This document shows, in pieces, positions 7,441-43,910 of a stretch of DNA of 64,000 nucleotides. Below the pieces are notes generated by a model, which saw only the letters and a list, made by a program, of their open reading frames with translations, made no database searches and had not been told where the DNA came from. Location of the stretch: assembly GCA_001563915.1 (NCBI GenBank), contig LKMP01000001.1:1-64000 (forward strand), written 5' to 3'. Both the position numbers and the translations under genes were made by a program. Numbering within the stretch: the stretch's first letter is position 1; each line of letters starts with the position of its first letter. Origin of the DNA: Nanohaloarchaea archaeon B1-Br10_U2g21 (lineage in GTDB: Archaea > Nanohalarchaeota > Nanosalinia > Nanosalinales > Nanosalinaceae).

Positions 7441-8592
7441 TTACTCTTCTAAGAAGTCTAAATCCTGCGCCAAGAATTTTATTCCATCTTTGAAGTCATC
7501 ATTATCATAGTTTTCAGGATGCGCACCCATTTCTATAGCTAAATCTAGAGCGTTCTGCGCCAGACTTTCAAGCTTATCTTTGTCTTTTTTTAATTCTCTA
7601 AACGTTACACCGAGATCATACAAATGCGATCCTACAAAGTTCCCGACCTCGTGATCATAGTCTGTATTCATATGGTCTAGATTTCCGCAACCTACTAAAG
7701 TCGAAAAATGACTGGGTGAGGGAGTCGGAACATTATCGAATTCAGGTCTGAAGAGTTCTCCTGATTCAAGTTTTTCTAGGAATTTGCGATGTTGTATTTT
7801 TTTCATTATTTCCATCACTACATAATCAAAATTCTTTTCAATTAAGTCTTGGACATGGTCTCCGTACTCTTTCTCTATTTGATGCCATACCACGCCACTG
7901 TAATCAGAATCGTTGAATTCTTCAACACTGCTCCATACAATATCCTCGTGATCCTGTATATAACAACGGCGAATATTCTCGCTCCAGCTATTGTAAAGCA
8001 GTTCGCTTAACGTTTCTTGGTCAGACTCCCAAAGATCTCGTATCTCTCTTTCGAGCTTTTCATACTCTTCAATACTAGTAGTTTCATCAAAATAAGGGCG
8101 GTCATTATGACCGTAATCTATCATTGAAGAAATATGTTCTCTATCGGGGCCGGAGAACTTTCCAAAAGTCTCTAAATGTCCTTTTACGTAGCCTAAAGGA
8201 TTTCGGTCAAACATTTGATCGCTTTCTACGTATTCTCGGGCTACATTGTCAGCGAAAATCTCATTGGCTAAAATTTCAAGACTATCGTTCATATTGGGCG
8301 AAGCTTTTATCGCGCCGCTCTCGGTCAAAACAGGATCAGCATTCCAGAACTCGCCCTCAACTTCTTGAGCATAAAAGTCGTGAGCTAGTTCGTGCGCTAA
8401 AATATGCATGTTATCTAATTCAATGCCAATGACTGGGGAGTCTTCTTCTCTTCCGATATAGACTCCTCCGCCGTTGCTTCCAGGATAAACAATAACGCTC
8501 TCAGCATCTAAGTCTAGGTCTGAAGCAACGCCTACGACAAATTCTTCTAACTCGGGAGCTAAAGGATCTCTATTACGATAAACTAGGTCCAT
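7441..8592 (-). CDS. HExxH-containing protein, putative metallopeptidase
   Basis: A 383-aa acidic soluble protein. Residues 61-73 read NMHILAHELAHDF, containing a perfect HExxH zinc motif, and NEIFADN about 40 residues later may supply a glutamate ligand as in gluzincins. The first 60 residues (VIVYPGSNGGGVYIG) resemble the substrate-side strands that usually precede this helix. The last 200 residues are helical and unassigned. No signal peptide is present, so it probably acts in the cytoplasm. A TATA-like TTTTTATAG occurs about 30 nt upstream. I cannot name a family, and the catalytic role rests only on the motif. Confidence 0.7.
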   Translation of the reverse strand: MDLVYRNRDPLAPELEEFVVGVASDLDLDAESVIVYPGSNGGGVYIGREEDSPVIGIELDNMHILAHELAHDFYAQEVEGEFWNADPVLTESGAIKASPNMNDSLEILANEIFADNVAREYVESDQMFDRNPLGYVKGHLETFGKFSGPDREHISSMIDYGHNDRPYFDETTSIEEYEKLEREIRDLWESDQETLSELLYNSWSENIRRCYIQDHEDIVWSSVEEFNDSDYSGVVWHQIEKEYGDHVQDLIEKNFDYVVMEIMKKIQHRKFLEKLESGELFRPEFDNVPTPSPSHFSTLVGCGNLDHMNTDYDHEVGNFVGSHLYDLGVTFRELKKDKDKLESLAQNALDLAIEMGAHPENYDNDDFKDGIKFLAQDLDFLEE

Positions 8593-8709
8593 CTAAACAT
8601 TTCATCTGGAACTAACTATAAAAACCACTCGGAGATTTTACTCACTAGCAAATAACAACGTAATGTGTGAGAGTAAAGAACGCTCAAACTCCATTCGTAT
8701 CAACTAAAT

Positions 8710-8786
8710 AAGAATAAAAAGAAGGATGAAAGGCCCTGTAAAGGCCTTTAAAAACTTCTTTCGGCAGCGTAACAAATCTTATTCTT
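8710..8786. repeat. Nested inverted repeats beside the RNA candidate
   Basis: An 8-bp inverted repeat (AAGAATAA at 8710-8717, TTATTCTT at 8779-8786) encloses a 7-bp hairpin (AAAGGCC at 8729-8735, GGCCTTT at 8743-8749, 7-nt loop). It could be the 3' end or terminator region of a transcript coming from the minus strand, because the minus strand then runs into T-rich sequence. Confidence 0.45.
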
Positions 8787-8829
8787 TTTTTCTTTCACCT
8801 ATTTAAGGCTTATTCAAGTTTCAAGTCGA

Positions 8830-9030
8830 CAAAATCCAATCTTTTCGGTCAGGCCCTACAACCCAAGTCCCCCTTAGTTGAGGAACAGGCCAGAATCGCC
8901 CAACCTACTCATCCTGTATCACCTATACAGGATAAACAGATTGGAAATATACCTGCTTGTAAAGCTCACATTAACTCGTTCAAAAAACCTTTGCACGGCT
9001 TTTGAGGCTCGAGCTGTGTGAGTCATATCC
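8830..9030 (-). ncRNA. Unassigned structured RNA candidate
   Basis: The 504-nt gap 8593-9096 has no credible ORF but strong pairing potential. Read on the minus strand, a rod forms from CTCACA/TGTGAG (9017-9022 with 8965-8970), CTCG/CGAG (9010-9013 with 8975-8978) and TCAAAA/TTTTGA (9000-9005 with 8980-8985). A second domain is closed by CCAATCT/AGATTGG (8938-8944 with 8836-8842). It contains a perfect 9-bp hairpin (8911-8919 with 8925-8933) and a GGCC-closed arm. A TATA-like box (9049-9057) lies about 25 nt before the suggested 5' end. I found neither the RNase P conserved blocks nor the SRP helix 8 motif, so its identity is open. Confidence 0.5.
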
Positions 9031-9048
9031 CTAAATTGTAGAGCAGCC

Positions 9049-9057
9049 TTTTTAAAA
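9049..9057 (-). promoter_or_regulatory. TATA-like box for the RNA candidate
   Basis: Minus-strand GTTTTAAAAAG lies upstream of the structured region with no ORF directly behind it. The expected start is near 9025-9030. Confidence 0.4.
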
Positions 9058-9096
9058 CTTCGCATCCATAAAGAACCGAGTTCAAAAGCAGATTTT

Positions 9097-10968
9097 TCAC
9101 TCTACTTCATCTATTTGAGCATTCCAGAGTCTCTCATACTTACCTCCTCTTTCAAGAAGTTGTTCATGACTTCCTTGCTCGACGATCCTACCATTCTCCA
9201 TAACTAGTATCTGATCAGCATTCCTTATGGTAGACAATCTATGAGCAATAGCTAAAGTCGTTTTATCCTCTGTTAAACGTTGGATACTCCTTTGAATCTT
9301 CTTCTCTGTTTCAGTATCAACATCGCTCGTGGCCTCATCAAAAATCAGCATTTTCGGATCCTTCAAAATAGTTCTAGCAATAGTTATGCGCTGACGCTGA
9401 CCTCCCGATAATTTAACACCTCTTTCACCCACACGAGTATCATAACCCTTAGGTAAATCTTCAATAAACTCATGGGCTTCAGCCTTTCTAGCAGCATCAA
9501 TAATCTCATCTTCTGAGGCGCTTCTATCACCATAGGCGATATTATCTTTTATTGTTCCAGAAAACAGGAAGGAAGTCTGACCCACATAACCGATATTCTG
9601 TCTTAAACTTTCAACAGAGGTTTCAGAGATATTCTGACCATCAACTTTTATCTCGCCTGTATCGGGTTTGTAGAAAAGAGGCAGAAGTCTTGCAGTAGTT
9701 GTCTTTCCAGCACCTGTAGGACCTACTAAAGCAACTGTGTCTCCGGGCTCTACAACAAATTTAATATCCTCAAGCACTTTTTCATTAGAATTATATGAAA
9801 AATTAACGTTATCATATTCAACTCTGCCTTCTTCTACCTCTAATTCAGAGTCTCTATCTACTATTACTCGTTTTTCATCCATTAAACCAAATATTCTCTC
9901 TGTTGAAGCCTTAGCTCGTTGATACATATTAATAATCTCTCCAAACTGTGCTACAGGCCAGACAAACTGCTGAGTATACAGAATAAAAGTGACAAATTGT
10001 CCTACCATCAAGGTTCCTGTTAAAGGTCCTGGTGCTTCACCGTTTAGAACCCAAAAACTTCCTACTGCAAATGTTACTACGAAACCAAGACCCGCCAAGA
10101 GTCTGATGGCTGGGAAAAATTTGATCCTTATCTTTATGGCTTCCCAGTTAGTATCGAAATACGCTCTAGAAGACTTTAACACGCGAGAAGACTCATATTC
10201 TTCTGCTGTAAAGGCTTTAATTACTTCAATTCCGCCTAAGTTGTTTTCTAGTCTTGAATTTAGTTTCCCCACTGATGCTCGCATCTTAGCATAGCGTGGT
10301 TGTATCGCCTTCACAAAAAAGTATGTGAAAAAGGCTATCAGCGGCACGGGAACGAGCGCGATAAGAGCTAACTGCCAGTTAATCCAGAAGAGGATCCCGC
10401 CAATCCCTAAAACCATTACTCCAAGTCTAAAGCTTGAGTTCATGCCTTCATTCAAGAAAGTCTCCAATTGATTTACATCGTTAGACATAACTGACATTAA
10501 TTCTCCAGTCTGTTTATTCGCGAAAAACCCTAAGTCTAATTGCTGTAAATGATTGTAGGCATCAGTACGAACATCATGCTGAACGTTCTGTGCGAAAAGA
10601 TTGAATCCCCAATTCCTCCAGTAATGGAAGAAAGCTGCGAGAACAAACGAAAAACCTAAAGCACCGACTAAAAACATTAGCTGGCCTTCTTCGGAAACAG
10701 GCAGCTGAGTTTCAGAAAGCAAAGGTAACGCGTCATATAACTCTTGTTCTTCAGTCAAAACTGTGTCAATAGCGATACCAAGAATTAATGGCGGCATTAA
10801 ATCAAGAAGCCGAGAAAAAATGCTTCCGATAACGCCTACTGCAAAAGCGACTCTATACTTATTCCCATAACCTAGGAAAAGTCGCTTCATCGGATTTTCA
10901 ACGTTCTCTCTAATATTTCCGAATGGATCATCTTCAACATTGCTGTAACGCGAAACATTAGTTGCCAT
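9097..10968 (-). CDS. ABC exporter, fused permease and ATPase
   Basis: A 623-aa half-transporter of the MsbA/MDR type. About six membrane segments lie in residues 50-340, followed by an ATPase domain with Walker A GPTGAGKT, the signature LSGGQRQR, Walker B MLIFDEATS with the catalytic Glu, and the H-loop in AIAHRLS. It should act as a homodimer exporting lipids or drugs; the substrate is unknown. Length and domain order are normal for the family and all ATPase motifs look intact. A TATA-like box at 10996-11004 sits 28-36 nt before the ATG, giving a nearly leaderless monocistronic transcript. Confidence 0.93.
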   Translation of the reverse strand: MATNVSRYSNVEDDPFGNIRENVENPMKRLFLGYGNKYRVAFAVGVIGSIFSRLLDLMPPLILGIAIDTVLTEEQELYDALPLLSETQLPVSEEGQLMFLVGALGFSFVLAAFFHYWRNWGFNLFAQNVQHDVRTDAYNHLQQLDLGFFANKQTGELMSVMSNDVNQLETFLNEGMNSSFRLGVMVLGIGGILFWINWQLALIALVPVPLIAFFTYFFVKAIQPRYAKMRASVGKLNSRLENNLGGIEVIKAFTAEEYESSRVLKSSRAYFDTNWEAIKIRIKFFPAIRLLAGLGFVVTFAVGSFWVLNGEAPGPLTGTLMVGQFVTFILYTQQFVWPVAQFGEIINMYQRAKASTERIFGLMDEKRVIVDRDSELEVEEGRVEYDNVNFSYNSNEKVLEDIKFVVEPGDTVALVGPTGAGKTTTARLLPLFYKPDTGEIKVDGQNISETSVESLRQNIGYVGQTSFLFSGTIKDNIAYGDRSASEDEIIDAARKAEAHEFIEDLPKGYDTRVGERGVKLSGGQRQRITIARTILKDPKMLIFDEATSDVDTETEKKIQRSIQRLTEDKTTLAIAHRLSTIRNADQILVMENGRIVEQGSHEQLLERGGKYERLWNAQIDEVE

Positions 10969-43766: not shown

Positions 43767-43910
43767 GGGAAAGTAGCTCAGGGGTTAGAGCGCTGCGCTC
43801 ATAACAATGATTATGAGCAATGAGGAGGTCTAAAAGCCTTCGATGATTAAAGTTCGTATCGCTTTATGTGAGATACGCAGAGGTCCCGGGTTCGATTCCC
43901 GGCTTTCCCA
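43767..43910 (+). tRNA. tRNA-Met (anticodon CAT), probable elongator, with intron
   Basis: The acceptor stem is GGGAAAG/CTTTCCC with discriminator A at 43910. The D-arm is GCTCAGGGGTTAGAGC, the anticodon stem CTGCG/CGCAG holds the loop CTCATAA once spliced, and the T-arm is CCGGGTTCGATTCCCGG. Exons are 43767-43803 and 43875-43910 (73 nt mature). The intron splits positions 37/38. A tRNA-Ile2 with CAT anticodon is possible from the anticodon alone. However, elongator tRNA-Met carries an intron in Haloferax, which favours Met. Confidence 0.88.
43804..43874 (+). other. tRNA-Met intron (71 nt) with bulge-helix-bulge junction
   Basis: At the exon-intron junctions CTCA (exon, before TA|A) can pair with TGAG (intron, before AT|A), giving a 4-bp helix flanked by 3-nt bulges TAA and ATA. 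This is the classical archaeal bulge-helix-bulge cut by the splicing endonuclease. Early in the intron TTATGAGC is perfectly complementary to GCTCATAA of the anticodon region, an alternative pairing. Part of the intron could carry a guide RNA, but no clear box C/D set was found. Confidence 0.8.

Follow-up and report, generated by a model that had tools for sequence, protein, structure and literature searches.

The 504-nt gap between two open reading frames on a contig of a Nanohaloarchaea genome (designated G000) holds the gene of a conserved, structured RNA, which is predicted to run on the minus strand from about position 9027 to about position 8720 of the window, i.e. the whole analyzed stretch of 64,000 nt, and to be about 305 nt long. 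The RNA appears to be confined to one family of Nanohaloarchaea. Because a conserved RNA structure, a kept reading frame, promoter spacing, and an SD-like element are combined in it, we give about an even chance to the reading that it is a dual-function RNA, namely an apparently leaderless mini-mRNA and at the same time a structured, probably ribosome-engaging RNA.

The gap is bordered, as originally described, by a 383-codon open reading frame (7441-8592) and an ABC transporter gene (9097-10968), both on the minus strand. The former encodes an acidic, metalloprotease-like protein of 383 aa, which contains a HELAH motif (HILAHELAHDFYA) and is without significant Pfam match. The original prediction had placed a structured RNA with a TATA-like box at 8700-9060; the RNA gene lies inside these limits and the TATA-like box was found again, while the strand, which had not been given, proved to be minus. 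Folding of the whole gap resulted in z-scores of -2.33 for the minus and -1.11 for the plus strand, and from the ATG to the end of the core the mean z-score of 13 copies was -4.08 in sense and -2.12 in antisense orientation. An RNA on the plus strand was rejected, as its fold is weaker and lacks support from relatives. The 3' ends of the RNA are guesses; they are based on a pyrimidine/T-rich tract at tail position ~109-125, and a T-rich tract is similarly placed in relatives. Most relatives have a longer predicted RNA (~380-400 nt versus ~305 nt here). The features are compiled in Table 1.

Table 1. Predicted features of the RNA gene; positions refer to the window
Feature	Position	Strand	Basis or remark
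Whole predicted RNA gene	8720..9027	-	ends predicted, 5' from TATA box, 3' from pyrimidine/T-rich tract
TATA-like box TTTTAAAA	9050..9057	-	read from sequence; ends 23 nt before ATG
Mini-ORF, 35 codons + TGA stop (8921-8919), MTHTARASKAVQRFFERVNVSFTSRYISNLFILYR	8919..9026	-	frame open in 12/12 orthologs
P1 5' strand CTCACA	9017..9022	-	directly after ATG; pairs with 8970-8965
P1 3' strand TGTGAG	8965..8970	-	covariation with 9017-9022
Conserved 93-nt core (models R1/R2)	8843..8935	-	cmsearch, matches in 12 genomes
P2 hairpin ATCCTGTAT-AGGTG-ATACAGGAT	8911..8933	-	stop codon of the mini-ORF at loop end
P3 5' strand GGTTGGG	8899..8905	-	pairs with 8853-8847
P3 3' strand CCTGACC	8847..8853	-	covariation
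P4 hairpin, hexaloop AACT(C/A)A (here AACTAA, 8879-8874)	8861..8890	-	covariation
SD-like AGGTGA in tail	8795..8800	-	complementary to 16S 3' end GGATCACCTCC
Likely terminator, AAAGGCC...GGCCTTT stem + T-rich tract	8715..8760	-	read from sequence; predicted

Near relatives of G000 include the public Nanohaloarchaea records SG9 (G004), PL-Br10_U2g27, NHA29, M3_22, and SW_4_43_9. BLASTN searches with the gap identified homologs in the same genus (77% identity over 360 nt) and in the family. A covariance model of the 93-nt core was built as R1 and then as R2; cmsearch with R1 gave an E-value of 7.7e-19 in the own genome, E-values of such home-made models being rough. The core model detected the RNA in 12 of the 19 genomes of the family and in 9 of the 10 with a completeness of 90% or more; several of the genomes without a match are incomplete. 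The closed genome G010 (95%) gave no match and seems either to be without the RNA or to carry a form beyond the reach of the model. Beyond the family, the search covered the remaining families of the phylum, twelve other archaea, and viral contigs, none of which gave a convincing match to the core model; a viral origin was rejected, the pattern being absent from 2.9 million viral contigs. The gene neighborhoods of the homologs are unrelated between relatives; since the neighboring genes differ, the RNA is encoded by a free-standing gene of its own.

The sample analyzed below consists of 13 copies, i.e. 12 orthologs and a divergent second copy in G004, from nine lineages, the independence of which is our judgement based on their unalignable middles. 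The second copy (L034; G004:C1:603445-603532) is located ~1.5 kb from the first one and has its own TATA-like box, P1, P3, P4, and ATG. Its hairpin is without stop codon, and the frame continues through the core to a length of 59 codons.

The conserved core contains 31 base pairs with 95.7% of the cells paired and shows a mean column identity of 86% among the first eight homologs. Changes on both sides were observed in 16 pairs as compared to 6.7 in shuffled alignments, and none of the 500 shuffles reached 16; furthermore, core pairing was halved when the partner was slid by one base. Covariation is thus strong, and the compensatory changes, the absence of which from relatives would speak against a structured RNA, are present. 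Within the core, P2 has 94.2% of its cells paired and double-sided changes in four of ten pairs, P3 has 98.8% paired and double changes in four of seven pairs, and P4 has 94.7% paired, changes on both sides in 7 of 11 pairs, and a nearly fixed hexaloop. The outer helix P1 is present in all 13 copies, has its start 3-10 nt away from the ATG (counted from the A) in each of them, and is rewritten between lineages (CTCACA/TGTGAG here; GTCTTACAGC/GCTGTAAGGC, AGGCATAGC/GCTATGCCT, and GCTCCT/AGGAGC elsewhere); its strands were chosen manually before being tested against shuffles, which resulted in a combined Fisher P-value of 2.5e-8.

Most of the helices proposed in the original prediction reappear in this fold. 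Its perfect 9-bp hairpin is P2 (8933-8925 with 8919-8911) and shows compensatory changes. Its rod corresponds to P1 (9022-8965), where the outer 6-bp helix CTCACA/TGTGAG, which is compensatory, is followed by the 4-bp helix CTCG/CGAG; compensatory changes were also observed in a helix inside the GGCC-containing arm. The proposed 7-bp closing stem CCAATCT/AGATTGG has to be dropped: it is an 8-bp match in G000, absent in the nearest relative, and an in-register closing stem across relatives was no better than permutation (P = 0.12).

The RNA was compared with 4227 Rfam families (Rfam 15, including C/D and H/ACA guides), which gave only chance-level matches in the gap and in two homologs; in particular, the archaeal SRP, RNase P, C/D, and H/ACA models suggested for a search did not match the gap. 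A very divergent SRP or RNase P RNA had been considered, as the length range fits and neither RNA had been seen elsewhere. Both are found on other contigs of G000 above the gathering scores, the SRP RNA at C2:5795-6075 (98.6 bits, gathering 96.5; RF01857) and the RNase P RNA at C23:7200-7507 (115.9 bits, gathering 84; RF00373), but the gap matches neither model, and we regard the probability of this assignment as practically nil. Support from relatives and covariation instead favors the second option of the original prediction, a new RNA. As a side observation, the RNase P RNAs of G005, G010, G012, and G003 scored 20.7-50.1 bits against the gathering score of 84, those of the same genus 116-118; the RNase P RNA of the family seems to be fast-evolving.

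The ATG is preceded, in each of the 13 copies, by an A/T-rich TATA-like box at a distance of 22-23 nt. The spacing between TATA box and transcription start is well established for archaea; a transcript start is therefore expected at, or within ~2 nt of, the ATG, and the transcript is apparently leaderless. The gap had been described as free of open reading frames, which is wrong: the ATG opens a minus-strand frame of 35 codons (9026-8919), which remains open in all 12 orthologs with lengths of 33-38 codons. In 11 of them, a TGA, TAA, or TAG stop codon occupies the end of the P2 loop, and the remaining ortholog has its stop codon immediately downstream of P2. Internal stop codons are absent from frame 0 of the 12 orthologs and numerous in both frame 1 and frame 2. 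The unalignable middle alone, counted in nine lineages, contains 0, 10, and 12 stop codons in frames 0, 1, and 2, respectively (P ~1.8e-5). Before the core, the copies differ in length by 6, 9, and 27 nt, thus by multiples of three. Selenocysteine insertion or programmed readthrough at the stop codon was rejected, as TGA, TAA, or TAG is used depending on the species; readthrough to the TGA of AGGTGA was also rejected, as this codon shares the frame in just 5 of 10 copies, which is near chance.

The same frame could belong to a purely non-coding RNA, if the ATG belonged to the start-site sequence and chance had left the frame open. Such an RNA would account for a peptide that is hardly constrained, the SRP RNA of a relative likewise starts with ATATGGG at its predicted 5' end, and P1 and P2 are located just where the frame is conserved, at its two ends. 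The significance reached by the variable middle alone, the three types of stop codon at one site, and the indels of 6, 9, and 27 nt argue against a chance frame, and we consider the non-coding reading unlikely.

The frame-0 peptide is depleted in D/E (z = -3.3) and P (z = -4.1) and enriched in S/T/N (z = 4.0), a bias which is absent from frames 1 and 2; its D/E content is 1.8% as compared to 6-25% in six neighboring proteins. The kept frame and the non-random composition make translation of the frame likely; as to what the peptide does, the same data are weak evidence. Its sequence seems to be hardly constrained, with pN/pS values of 0.47, 0.81, and 1.02 in three close pairs and a middle that cannot be aligned between lineages. 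The RNA may, as a further alternative, be the mRNA of a small protein with a structured 3' UTR, in which case the peptide would be the sole product and core and tail would act in cis on stability, termination, or ribosome recycling. The frame open in all orthologs, the kept position of the stop codon, and the non-random peptide composition agree with such an mRNA, but the RNA is far better conserved (86% column identity in the core) than the peptide (pN/pS 0.5-1, unalignable middle). It is a possibility to be reckoned with, though on the improbable side.

The small size of the peptide, its non-acidic character against an acidic background proteome, and the structured mRNA would also be compatible with a type I toxin-like mRNA, i.e. 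a small toxic or membrane-active peptide restrained by the structure of its own message. The hydrophobic moment of the peptide did not exceed that of shuffled peptides, so amphipathicity is not significant (P = 0.15), no clear membrane span was recognized by eye, no Pfam match was obtained, and the gene is present as a single copy across the family; a toxin is accordingly very improbable.

Preservation of the frame without conservation of the peptide would furthermore be expected if translation mattered and the peptide sequence did not. In some copies including that of G000, P2 can be extended by pairing of CCAATCT with AGGTTGG, which excludes P3, and the predicted lowest-energy folds are divided between extended P2 and P3. 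A ribosome at the P2 stop codon might thus free GGTTGG from CCAATCT (codons 29-31) and let P3 form. Against such a translation-driven switch, G004, G003, G007, and G008 show the alternative pairing weakly or not at all, and P3, in contrast to the extended P2, is kept in all copies; we hold the switch to be decidedly unlikely.

The tail following the core is unstructured (z = -0.8) and ends in the T-rich tract. It is A/C-rich in most relatives, which simply explains why it is poor in stop codons in all three frames, and A/T-rich in this genus (G000 and G002). The motif RGGUGA (RGGTGA in the DNA) is found in the tail of seven of the nine lineages (P ~5e-11 by shuffles). Its usual distance from the core end is 129-148 nt, with the T tract following ~45 nt further on; in G000 and G002 it follows the core after 43 nt. 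The complementary 16S 3'-end sequence GGATCACCTCC was identified in eight of nine relatives searched, with the 16S context read in G007; it was not found in the window's own assembly, from which the respective contig is probably missing. No SD-like motif was present within 90 nt 3' of the SRP (n = 3) and RNase P genes (n = 2) inspected, and interpretation of the motif as a general 3' mark of stable RNAs was therefore rejected. A ribosome site for a second open reading frame is also unlikely, since no suitable start codon follows the motif in the copies read. Complementarity to the 16S 3' end is the one feature that points to a role of the RNA at the ribosome, which we consider probable. The tail (8842-8720) also contains a stretch, ACGCTGCC, shared by G000, G002, G017, and G011; it precedes the SD-like motif in two of these genomes and follows it in the other two.

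According to the dual-function reading, one minus-strand transcript of ~305 nt would be both mini-mRNA and structured RNA. It would start at the AUG, be translated without a leader, and the ribosome would terminate in P2. The RNA as such would then become active through its structured core and its 16S-complementary tail, the most likely modes being engagement of 30S subunits or competition at the anti-SD sequence. The result would be a dual-function RNA tuning translation, the second function being the peptide or merely its translation. Several observations speak against this reading: the pN/pS values indicate hardly any constraint on the peptide; P1 starts right after the AUG and, if fully folded, would hinder leaderless initiation; the SD-like motif is missing in two of nine lineages and differently spaced in this genus (43 versus 129-148 nt); and the G004 paralog keeps the ATG and the open frame, not the stop codon in the hairpin. 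A more specific proposal is that the RNA engages the ribosome twice, by leaderless translation regardless of the peptide sequence and by its tail on the 16S 3' end. Translation would terminate in a hairpin loop of the RNA's own fold, and the tail element behind the stop codon would hold the 16S 3' end; this proposal is tentative and in our view rather unlikely.

Nanohaloarchaea are tiny, salt-loving archaea usually regarded as host-dependent. If the twofold engagement were true, one small RNA would sense or control translation capacity in a reduced, host-dependent archaeon. The RNA family is apparently absent from Rfam and comes from a group with little known RNA biology, and the covariance model makes its annotation possible. 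With an apparently leaderless frame, a stop codon in a conserved hairpin loop, and a 16S-complementary tail, it makes coding versus regulatory roles of archaeal sRNAs testable.

The closest documented case in kind is apparently sRNA154 of Methanosarcina mazei, for which a dual function and a leaderless sORF of 20 aa have been proposed (PMC11456600), the likeness being one of anatomy. Both are free-standing structured archaeal sRNAs with a small ORF at the very 5' end, which in the present RNA is apparently leaderless as well. The sRNA154 peptide is reported as highly conserved and its target pairing is known, whereas the peptide described here is not conserved; the stop codon in a hairpin and the SD-like tail found here are not described for sRNA154 in the part of the source at hand (PMC11456600). 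Haloferax volcanii possesses many ribosome-associated sRNAs, a minority of which was shown to code (PMC12482152). They would resemble the present RNA as small archaeal RNAs engaging ribosomes, some coding and some not, but they are haloarchaeal and were identified by Ribo-seq, whereas this RNA is known from sequence alone. A conserved intergenic nanohaloarchaeal sRNA of 266 nt, STRG.4577.1, was reported from a halite metatranscriptome (PMC7002113). It comes from the same class of organisms, is similar in length, intergenic, and conserved, and may be the RNA described here, as matched by description, not by sequence; an SRP RNA that escaped Rfam would be just as possible, and other sRNAs of that study are reported as such (PMC7002113).

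A tmRNA was rejected, as neither ARAGORN nor Rfam detected a tRNA-like domain. The tag frame of bacterial tmRNA also ends in a hairpin loop, and both RNAs carry a short frame within a structured RNA; unlike bacterial tmRNA, the RNA described here has no tRNA-like domain, its frame starts at the 5' end, and the family is without SmpB. A tmRNA-like rescue was likewise rejected: none of the 19 relatives yielded an SmpB match above the cut-off, while 10 bacterial controls were positive. At gathering scores, Rfam matches in the window were tRNAs only. One of the Rfam tRNA matches, at 43767-43910 on the plus strand, is spread over 144 bases and was not called by ARAGORN, which suggests an intron-containing tRNA gene.
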